The notes beneath the pieces were generated by a model. That model saw nothing but the letters and a program-made list of their open reading frames with translations, did not search any database and had not been told where the DNA came from. The translations under genes were made by a program, and so were the position numbers. 26,088 nucleotides of DNA, from positions 1 through 26,088 of IMG/VR virus record IMGVR_UViG_3300042377_000135, one strand, 5' to 3'. The stretch is from a virus. Positions 10,668 to 12,810 of this stretch are shown here, piece after piece. Numbering within the stretch: position 1 is the stretch's first letter; every line of letters begins with the position of its first letter.

Positions 10668-10675
10668 GATAAATA
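10668..10675 (+). promoter_or_regulatory. Possible late promoter (GATAAATA) of the plus operon
   Basis: GATAAATA 57 bases before the ATG at 10732, on the plus strand. It drives genes for products that should be packaged in the head, which in T4 are late. The minus-strand uvdE promoter lies in the same divergent gap. Confidence 0.5.
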
Positions 10676-10731: not shown

Positions 10732-11148
10732 ATGAAAATTACTGAAGTTATTACCGAAGCCGCAAACCCAGCACAACAAGCCGCTATTGCTATTGCTAAA
10801 AAGAAAGAGCAAGGAATAGATGAGGATTGGAACAAGGTCAACAGGAAAGACAAAACGTCCGGTATGAGCCGTAAGGCGGTAAAAGCATATCGTAGAGAAA
10901 ATCCAGGTAGCAAATTGCAAACAGCAGTTACTACCAAACCTAGTAAATTAAAGCCTGGATCAAAAGCTGCCAAACGCCGCAAGAGTTTCTGTGCTCGTAT
11001 GAGTGGCAACAAAGGTCCTATGAAAAAGCCTAATGGTAAACCTACTCCCAAAGCATTAGCACTACGCAGATGGAATTGCGAGAGTGTAGAGCAAATGGAA
11101 GAATTAGTAATGCTAGCTGAACAATATATTAGAAACCTTAAGAAATAA
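10732..11148 (+). CDS. Basic DUF6321-like protein with capsid-targeting-like N-terminus (138 aa)
   Basis: Residues 1-10 MKITEVITEA resemble the T4 internal-protein capsid-targeting sequence (M-K-x-x-x-E-F-I-x-E-A), with a predicted prohead-protease cut after ITE. Residues ~29-90 (DEDWNKVNRKDKTSGMSRKA, AYRRENPGSKLQTAVTTKPS, KPGSKAAKRRKSFCARMSG) form a Lys/Arg-rich domain seen in many marine phages that I associate with DUF6321. RRWNC follows, then a helical tail. The high positive charge suggests DNA contact inside the head. First gene of the plus operon; only a weak GGA ribosome site. A role in head assembly or DNA ejection is inferred. Confidence 0.75.
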   Translation: MKITEVITEAANPAQQAAIAIAKKKEQGIDEDWNKVNRKDKTSGMSRKAVKAYRRENPGSKLQTAVTTKPSKLKPGSKAAKRRKSFCARMSGNKGPMKKPNGKPTPKALALRRWNCESVEQMEELVMLAEQYIRNLKK

Positions 11149-11149
11149 C

Positions 11150-11827
11150 GTGCGAGCAAACGAATTCATTAGTGAAGCTATTAACCGTAGAGACCTGCTT
11201 AAAGGTGTAGCAGGCGCTGCCGCATTAGGTGCTACCGGTTTAGCTAAAGCAGGTGAATATCAAGATTTAGAAACTATAAAAAAAGAACCTGACGTTTGGA
11301 TGCCTAGATTTGAACAACTGCAACAACGCAGTAATGGTATGCTGGGTAAGTTAATGCGAGCTGCCGGACCAGAATGGGCACAAAGACTGAAGGGTGCAAA
11401 AGTTATTGTTATGTCAAATGACCAATGGGTTCAAGGAAATGCTGGCAATCGTACTGTCAGTCTTGACCTAACTGTGTTTTGGGATGCTCCTGACTCCACA
11501 CTAGCATTTGCTATAGCACACGAACTGGGACACATTGCCCTAGCACACAATGACCAGCCAGATCCTAAGAAAGCACGTCAGGAAGAAATGGATGCTGACG
11601 ACTTTGCTATTAAGTTATGCAGGGCTTTGGGTTACAACAAAGTTGAGATGTTCAAGTTCTTGCATCAAAAACAATCTGATTACGACTTTTATAATAGTAT
11701 AACTAAACTACCTAATAGCAGTCATCCTAGTTATGACCAACGTATCAATCGTGCAGATCAAAAAGGATTTCAGTTATCAAAAGGTGGTGTTAAACAAATG
11801 AATACGCTAATGACACACTTAGCTTAA
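11150..11827 (+). CDS. M48-like zinc metallopeptidase with capsid-targeting and Tat-like N-terminus (225 aa)
   Basis: Start is GTG one base after the preceding TAA, so it is probably coupled. MRANEFISEA (1-10) matches the capsid-targeting pattern with a predicted cut after ISE. NRRDLLKG plus a hydrophobic Ala/Gly stretch to AKA (12-34) is a Tat-type signal peptide. The catalytic site is HELGH (H124, E125, H128), with EEMDADDFA (about 145-152) supplying the third ligand, as in M48-like peptidases. Substrate unknown; cell-wall or host-protein attack is possible. Its TAA overlaps the convergent methylase stop (TTAA), and the operon terminator follows at 11845. Confidence 0.8.
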   Translation: MRANEFISEAINRRDLLKGVAGAAALGATGLAKAGEYQDLETIKKEPDVWMPRFEQLQQRSNGMLGKLMRAAGPEWAQRLKGAKVIVMSNDQWVQGNAGNRTVSLDLTVFWDAPDSTLAFAIAHELGHIALAHNDQPDPKKARQEEMDADDFAIKLCRALGYNKVEMFKFLHQKQSDYDFYNSITKLPNSSHPSYDQRINRADQKGFQLSKGGVKQMNTLMTHLA

Positions 11828-12810
11828 GCTGTCTCAAACATTGCAGGATCCAACTCAAGGGATCCTTTTTTTACCTTCTTCTCGGCTTTAACTGTCTTAG
11901 TTATTGTACAGTTCATTGCAGTAATCATTGGGCTATATAACAGTATCTCTCTTGCCACTGTAGCAGTCTGACTAGTTATCTTACCATCACTATCCTTGTT
12001 CTGCTTACGTCTTCCTGCAGTATAAGTTACATCATAATAACTGATAGATAGTTGACCTTGATTGTCGGTATAAAAAGTATCACCTGCATCACGGTTACAA
12101 TACATAACAAGATTGCCAGCTAAGTCAGATTGTTTACAAAAGTCCATTAGTTGTATATGTTGATTGTCATCGAACACCTGACTATAACTAGTGAAACTAT
12201 CTCTATAAGGTGGGTCAAAGAAGAACAATGCTTTGCCTTCAATATGCTTAGTACAAGCACTCCAGTCACCACAAAAGATATCAACCTTTTGTAAGAAGTT
12301 GTGCCATTCAATCACGTTTTGCTTGTCATAGCATGATGTAGTTTGAGTTAATAAACCACAAGGTGTAGCATATCTACCTTTACTAGCTTGAGTAGTTTGC
12401 CAAATACCATTAAAGCCAGTCTTCATTAAGAAATACAATGTAGCCGACTCAGTAGTTTTATTCCACTGAGAGTAGTTAGTTGTATATTCTGTACGTAGAT
12501 TGTAATAGAATGTTTTACGATCCACTTTACTTAGTGGCAAGTATTGAGATTCTAATGTATCCATTCTTGCGATAAAGTTAAGGTGATCTGTTTTGATAGC
12601 AGTATAGATGCCTACAATCTCAGGGTTAATATCGTTCATAATGAACTTCTTAACTGTGGGATTATTTTCGTAGATATGAATCATCATAGCACCACCACCG
12701 AAGAAGGGTTCTACAAAAGTGTCATAACCTGAGTATGGGATGCCGGGGTCAAGCTGGTACTTAGGTATCATCTTATTCTTGCCACCGGCCCAGATGTATA
12801 AAGGTTTCAT
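11824..12810 (-). CDS. D12-class DNA adenine methyltransferase, Dam-like (328 aa)
   Basis: N6-adenine methylase. MKPLYIWAGGKNKMI is the class signature at the N-terminus (WAGGK), FVEPFFGGGAM is the SAM-binding motif I, and LFFFDPPYRD is catalytic motif IV (DPPY). Order FxG - target domain - DPPY matches the D12 (alpha) class that includes T4 and host Dam, which usually methylate GATC, but the site cannot be read from sequence. Length is larger than T4 Dam (259 aa), owing to a C-terminal Lys-rich tail partly dictated by the embedded terminator. It directly follows a putative nuclease gene and shares its promoter. Confidence 0.88.
   Translation of the reverse strand: MKPLYIWAGGKNKMIPKYQLDPGIPYSGYDTFVEPFFGGGAMMIHIYENNPTVKKFIMNDINPEIVGIYTAIKTDHLNFIARMDTLESQYLPLSKVDRKTFYYNLRTEYTTNYSQWNKTTESATLYFLMKTGFNGIWQTTQASKGRYATPCGLLTQTTSCYDKQNVIEWHNFLQKVDIFCGDWSACTKHIEGKALFFFDPPYRDSFTSYSQVFDDNQHIQLMDFCKQSDLAGNLVMYCNRDAGDTFYTDNQGQLSISYYDVTYTAGRRKQNKDSDGKITSQTATVAREILLYSPMITAMNCTITKTVKAEKKVKKGSLELDPAMFETA
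11845..11872 (+). terminator. Rho-independent terminator inside the convergent methylase gene
   Basis: AGGATCC (11845-11851), 8-base loop, GGATCCT (11860-11866), then a run of seven T (11866-11872) on the plus strand. It lies 18 bases after the stop of the metallopeptidase. The same bases encode residues VKKGSLELDP near the methylase C-terminus. On the minus strand the hairpin is preceded, not followed, by the homopolymer, so it terminates only plus transcripts. Confidence 0.85.

Follow-up and report, generated by a model that had tools for sequence, protein, structure and literature searches.

The window analysed here, a stretch of 26,088 nt of viral DNA, is an IMG/VR record that represents a 26-kb fragment. 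The open reading frame of interest (Table 1) translates as MRANEFISEAINRRDLLKGVAGAAALGATGLAKAGEYQ...AIAHELGHIALAH...EEMDADDFA... and encodes the HExxH motif and glutamate ligand of peptidase family M48, with a PF01435 score of 35.2 bits (cut-off 20.3). The active-site residues H124, E125, H128, E146, A149, D150 and H192 are invariant in 14 relatives. In an AlphaFold model residues 41-212 are mostly confident and residues 1-35 are unstructured; the nearest solved folds are 3c37 and Escherichia coli BepA (Foldseek probability 0.99-1.00, E about 6e-3). The first 34 codons correspond exactly to positions 11150-11251, for which a preliminary description had proposed a capsid-targeting peptide followed by a concealed twin-arginine translocation (Tat) signal.

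The GTG start codon lies 1 nt past the stop of an upstream gene with a similar N-terminus, an arrangement that the window shares with 12 of its 13 close IMG/VR relatives, the 13th being a fusion. Searches of named phages by tblastn, with either the whole protein or its N-terminal cassette, gave no match, and a scan of bacterial genomes returned remote M48 matches only and no close bacterial relative. The T4-type late promoter core TATAAATA occurs nowhere in the whole window, against 4.8 occurrences expected in shuffles; a single site with one mismatch, at 10668, was not counted as evidence. An Rfam search gave no match.

Table 1 Features of the metallopeptidase locus and of the surrounding window
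Feature	Position	Strand	Basis
M48-family metallopeptidase gene	11150..11827	+	GTG start, 225 aa, HELGH zinc motif and ExxAD
Tag MRANEFISE, codons 1-9, ending in the prohead-protease motif I-S-E	11150..11176	+	Tag common to at least 193 phage proteins; T4 control; motif avoidance in protein bodies
Tat signal AINRRDLLKGVAGAAALGATGLAKA, codons 10-34, with signal-peptidase-type end AKA/G	11177..11251	+	TIGR01409 above cut-off; conserved in relatives
Twin-arginine codons R13-R14	11186..11191	+	Invariant in all Tat-bearing relatives
HELGH zinc-binding motif, H124-H128	11519..11533	+	Sequence; invariant in relatives
Upstream partner gene, DUF6321, 138 aa, N-terminus MKITEVITE/A	10732..11148	+	1 nt between its stop codon and the M48 start
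Tag MKITEVITE at codons 1-9 of the upstream gene, same type as the M48 tag	10732..10758	+	Sequence
Hairpin resembling a terminator, flanked by the cargo gene and a convergent methyltransferase-like gene	11845..11866	+	Weak: one found where shuffles predict 1.2
Possible further tagged gene, MSERKSLKQIITE/AVLAEL, 134 aa	2031..2435	-	Weak; longer spacing

The N-terminus of the metallopeptidase reads MRANEFISE/AINRRDLLKGVAGAAALGATGLAKA/G, that is, a T4-type capsid-targeting sequence (CTS, here also "tag") directly followed by a complete Tat signal. In phage T4 the capsid-targeting sequence is formed by the first 10 residues of the internal protein IPIII, and the prohead protease gp21 cleaves after L/I-x-E (PMC9026906). 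The only [LIV]-x-E in the 225-residue window protein is I7-S8-E9. The pattern MRA[NS]EF[ILV]xE opens at least 193 distinct phage proteins in IMG/VR, many of them plainly unrelated and belonging to many families, and all but three of the 193 distinct matches listed mark the start of a frame 40 or more residues long. A generalised form of the tag, M-x(1-6)-E-hydrophobic-hydrophobic-x-E, is present on 45 of 1305 genes (3.4%) in 16 contigs, which were chosen for tags or Tat signals, compared to 0.2% when positions inside these proteins are scored, and several different tagged genes occur per contig. As a positive control, the generalised pattern matches 5 of 272 T4 open reading frames, namely IPII, IPIII, gp24, Alt and gp61.1, the first four being head proteins processed by gp21 (PMC9026906); for gp24 this processing is noted in the T4 record itself as well. 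The fifth match, the uncharacterised gp61.1 (L419:18966-19130, minus strand), starts MKTFKEFIKED and is possibly an internal head protein so far overlooked.

Among tag-bearing records, an S77 prohead protease was found in 6 of 10 and a gp23 capsid gene in 8 of 10; neither is present in the ten records nearest to the window, every one of which is a fragment. The clamp loader relates the tag-bearing clade to the jumbo phages PA5oct, Atu_ph07 and SCTP-2, and these isolates encode the S77 protease too. The capsid proteins of the tag-bearing phages have S or N after an L-x-E motif around residue 42 and are presumably cleaved there. The PA5oct record lists two proteins that start with a related tag (MKINDIITE and MKIKDILVE) as detected in the virion by mass spectrometry, but as it does so for many proteins the support is weak. 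A looser tag pattern proved too noisy in PA5oct and SCTP-2 and was not counted. In the isolated phage SCTP-2, tandem genes at 208780-214398 (L410), all annotated as hypothetical, start MKINDLLKEN and MKVNDILKED and resemble a second dialect of the tag.

Tagged proteins that enter the prohead would have to withstand its protease, and the number of cleavage motifs in their bodies therefore provides an independent test. In 127 non-redundant tagged proteins [LI]xE was seen 107 times in the bodies against 136 expected (ratio 0.79, each protein being shuffled individually), whereas untagged proteins showed a ratio of 1.19 (n=1454). For [LI]xE[AGS] the ratios were 0.56 and 1.39, respectively. Control motifs were not depleted in the tagged proteins (the reversed motif E-x-[LI], 1.29; [LI]xD, [LI]xQ and [LI]xK, 1.08 to 1.24).

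The segment behind the tag contains NRRDLLKG, 14 uncharged and weakly hydrophobic residues, and AKA/G. The NCBI Tat-signal model TIGR01409 matches residues 11-31 with 19.2 bits (cut-off 16.7). The Pfam model TAT_signal (PF10518) gives the window protein 20.6 bits, below its gathering threshold of 22.7, and two relatives 22.0 (G009) and 22.9 (L314). The twin arginine, the uncharged stretch and AxA are retained in relatives down to 30-37% identity. Between the window and its relative L006 the Tat segment has dS 0.50 and dN 0.018, i.e. the changes are mainly silent, as far as so few codons can tell. M48 relatives with a tag-like start (MKIIEILE) and no Tat signal also exist (L193 and L196, 52-56% identical to the window protein).

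A relaxed scan of IMG/VR for a tag followed by RR, with gaps of 1 to 11 residues allowed, yielded at least 16 in-frame proteins, all with a Tat-like stretch, and RR falls at residues 12-14 in all tag-plus-Tat proteins found. An earlier strict scan (E[AG] then RRxxLK) had matched the window family alone and missed the forms with D, N or I after the tag. Together with homology searches, the relaxed scan places the combined signals on three unrelated enzyme types: M48 (the window group, L175/L182, L183, L184, L187, L185 and L323), GH19 (PF00182, 55 bits; L314, L315, L319, L323, L327 and L331) and a LysM-SLT transglycosylase (PF01476 and PF01464; L078). The co-occurrence of the two signals in related phage genomes, suggested in the preliminary description as something to look for, is found beyond the window family. 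Apart from these, none of the 193 tagged proteins listed has RRxhh within its first 40 residues, and no convincing Tat signal without a tag was found in the 16 contigs. Since the substrate of GH19 and SLT enzymes is peptidoglycan, an export signal on them is functionally sensible. The M48 gene of L185 and the GH19 gene of L315 share 81% DNA identity in the tag and 86% in the Tat segment, and only 29% thereafter, about the level of chance for unrelated sequences. Likewise, when the window gene is compared with L183, L184 and L187, pS rises from 0.18-0.27 in the Tat segment to 0.63-0.68 in the body, rough values for 26 codons. Judged from these comparisons, the CTS-Tat cassette is exchanged as one block between unrelated enzymes.

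Elsewhere, G026 (L351:14401-16786 and on) carries a cargo island in which five tagged genes lie within about 3 kb, encoding an SLT enzyme with Tat signal, proteins that by eye are acetyltransferase-like and ADP-ribosyltransferase-like, and others. In another locus (L271:9-395, plus strand) the tag precedes an apparent signal peptide without RR, MRANEFLTEEQLDELNWKNALITGALAATTALGSMSPAHAG.

Chance resemblance of the metallopeptidase N-terminus was considered and is ruled out by the recurrence of the tag, its rate at interior positions and the T4 control. At the level of sequence, our comparisons confirm the tag and the Tat signal as real, adjacent and conserved, with chance accounting for neither.

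The preliminary description regarded the Tat signal as hidden until the tag is cut off. A stretch of 12 residues ahead of the twin arginine is an ordinary n-region for a Tat signal, and because RR at residues 13-14 is nothing unusual the signal in the window protein need not be hidden. The idea does hold for certain fusion proteins. In G009, a 111-kb contig, the Tat-M48 part forms the second half of a 508-residue protein that starts MRASEFLSE/A, and the junction reads KTNNELAE/AISRRDLLKG; L097 has the same arrangement with the junction RTNNKVSE/AINRRDLLKG. The Tat signals of both lie near residues 292-296. In-frame ATG, GTG and TTG codons are missing from residue 231 up to the Tat signal in G009 and beyond residue 241 in L097, a distance of about 50 or more codons; without a start codon close by, a functional Tat signal in these proteins would need a cut at [LV]xE/A. 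The same front domain is joined in L175 through KTNNEITE/A to a different domain and occurs on its own in L104. Its model resembles the ADP-ribosyltransferase DarT, a lead only at a mean pLDDT of 53. Proteins of the G009, L097 and L175 type appear to be cargo fusions destined for separation by cleavage.

The fused M48 gene of L097 (at 10531) is broken after DSTL, with the HELGH part lost, and represents a decayed or misassembled copy. The second cargo domain (PLPADWD...) is fused behind EITE/A in L175 (7215-8729) and seemingly forms a tagged gene of its own in L218 (at 4535, by eye). Proteins of about 1500 residues in L194, L198 and L200 combine a nucleotidyltransferase-like front with an internal M48-like domain and are possible packaged polyproteins.

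In the window protein I-S-E is followed by A10, the residue that the proposed cut would leave at the new N-terminus. Within the window lineage the residue after E9 varies between A and D, and in most Tat-bearing relatives it is D, N or I. Among the tags listed, 120 of 193 have A, G or S after the glutamate, and the Tat-bearing set differs from this (Fisher p 0.003, with small numbers). An obligatory cut between E9 and A10 is therefore not supported across the family. In T4, S and L follow the presumed cuts of gp24 and Alt (positions taken from the L/I-x-E rule), so that D, N or I need not block cleavage, although the claim of an obligatory cut is still weakened. Cleavage after E9 may be optional in Tat-bearing proteins, as the variation at this position suggests.

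We propose that the first 34 codons may constitute a bipartite address. By analogy with T4, MRANEFISE would bind the prohead core late in infection and bring the metallopeptidase into the head, where the S77 prohead protease would cut after I-S-E, so that the mature protein would start AINRRDLLKG. At ejection the enzyme would accompany the DNA into the next cell, whose Tat system, from the sequence, would read RRDLLKG and export the folded enzyme, with signal peptidase cutting after AKA. The target of the enzyme would be an envelope protein, cleaved early in infection at the membrane or in the periplasm. We consider this route, from tag-directed packaging and prohead cleavage through ejection and host Tat export to early action in the envelope, to be probable for the window protein. 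That three envelope enzymes carry one cassette fits packaging, injection and Tat export better than coincidence. Slightly less confidently, though still as somewhat more likely than not, we extend the route to large T4-related phages in general: an exchangeable capsid-in/Tat-out address would preload M48, GH19 and transglycosylase enzymes in the virion, the newly infected cell would export them to the periplasm, and in polyprotein-like fusions the prohead protease would unmask the Tat signal.

As n-regions of 12 residues are normal for Tat, export of the uncut protein could take place already in the producing cell, which is the main rival explanation. The GH19, SLT and M48 enzymes would in this case serve lysis or envelope remodelling in the manner of Sec-exported phage lysins, and the tag would add a packaged fraction or retain the enzymes in proheads until late. 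It would require no cleavage ahead of RR at 13-14, it agrees with the frequent D or N after E9, and GH19 is a common phage endolysin family matched by 1829 phage records. Nevertheless, the tag is common to many proteins of a cytoplasmic cargo type, the prohead-protease motif is avoided in tagged bodies, and the Tat signals deep within the G009 and L097 fusions are unusable without a cut. We regard export in the producing cell as unlikely, though less so than the further alternatives.

It is also conceivable that the enzymes derive from captured bacterial Tat substrates to which the tag was prepended, the Tat signal persisting as a mere leader of proteins that act in the capsid or cytoplasm. 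Typical bacterial Tat proteins start with the same SRRxFL core, and M48 relatives devoid of a Tat signal exist. A vestigial signal is difficult to reconcile with the mainly silent changes in it, with the persistence of RR, uncharged stretch and AxA at 30-37% identity and with its co-transfer between enzymes; moreover, no cytoplasmic substrate is known for SLT or GH19, and the bacterial genome scan gave no close relative. This explanation appears improbable. Marginally more so is the notion that the tag is some other N-terminal signal, e.g. for control of translation or degradation, merely resembling the T4 CTS. In its favour, the PA5oct evidence comes down to two proteins whose tag is related, and many proteins of the record are noted as detected; yet the T4 control retrieves known gp21-processed head proteins, tagged bodies avoid the protease motif and most large tag-bearing records encode the S77 protease.

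Should packaging, injection and Tat export be correct, virion cargo would not be confined to the cytoplasm of the next host, as the host Tat system would deliver folded enzymes to the periplasm when infection begins, and Tat would be a host factor for infection. Virion cargo of unannotated jumbo phages could then be recognised by a code readable at the N-terminus, which flags T4 gp61.1 too, and two well-studied and previously unconnected sorting systems would be linked. The preliminary description knew of no such case; correspondingly, no combination of tag and Tat signal was found described in the open-access full texts searched.

The closest known counterparts are the T4 internal proteins IPI-IPIII and Alt (Black and colleagues; PMC9026906), which share a tag of about 10 N-terminal residues ending in L/I-x-E (MKTYQEFIAE/A in IPIII versus MRANEFISE/A in the window) and varied cargo behind one tag, including an ADP-ribosyltransferase. 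However, none of them is known to have an export signal behind the tag, and they act in the cytoplasm. In phage P1 the N-terminal 30 residues of DarB suffice to bring a reporter into the capsid (PMC9024508). This is likewise an N-terminal packaging signal, although DarB shares no consensus with the tag and has no described Tat signal. The periplasmic M48 peptidase BepA/YfgC of E. coli resembles the window protein in fold and in its envelope location, but is a bacterial gene product without a capsid tag, with a sequence identity of about 16%. T7 gp16, an ejected wall enzyme (transglycosylase), similarly represents a wall-degrading activity present in the virion and released during infection; in contrast to the proposed route, it acts from the ejection conduit and is without a Tat signal. 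Proteins of the thylakoid lumen are made with a bipartite presequence, in which a stromal transit peptide is followed by a Tat signal. Here, too, two addresses stand in series and removal of the first leaves the twin arginine near the new N-terminus, although the setting is organelle import with no virus involved, and the analogy is one of working, not of descent.
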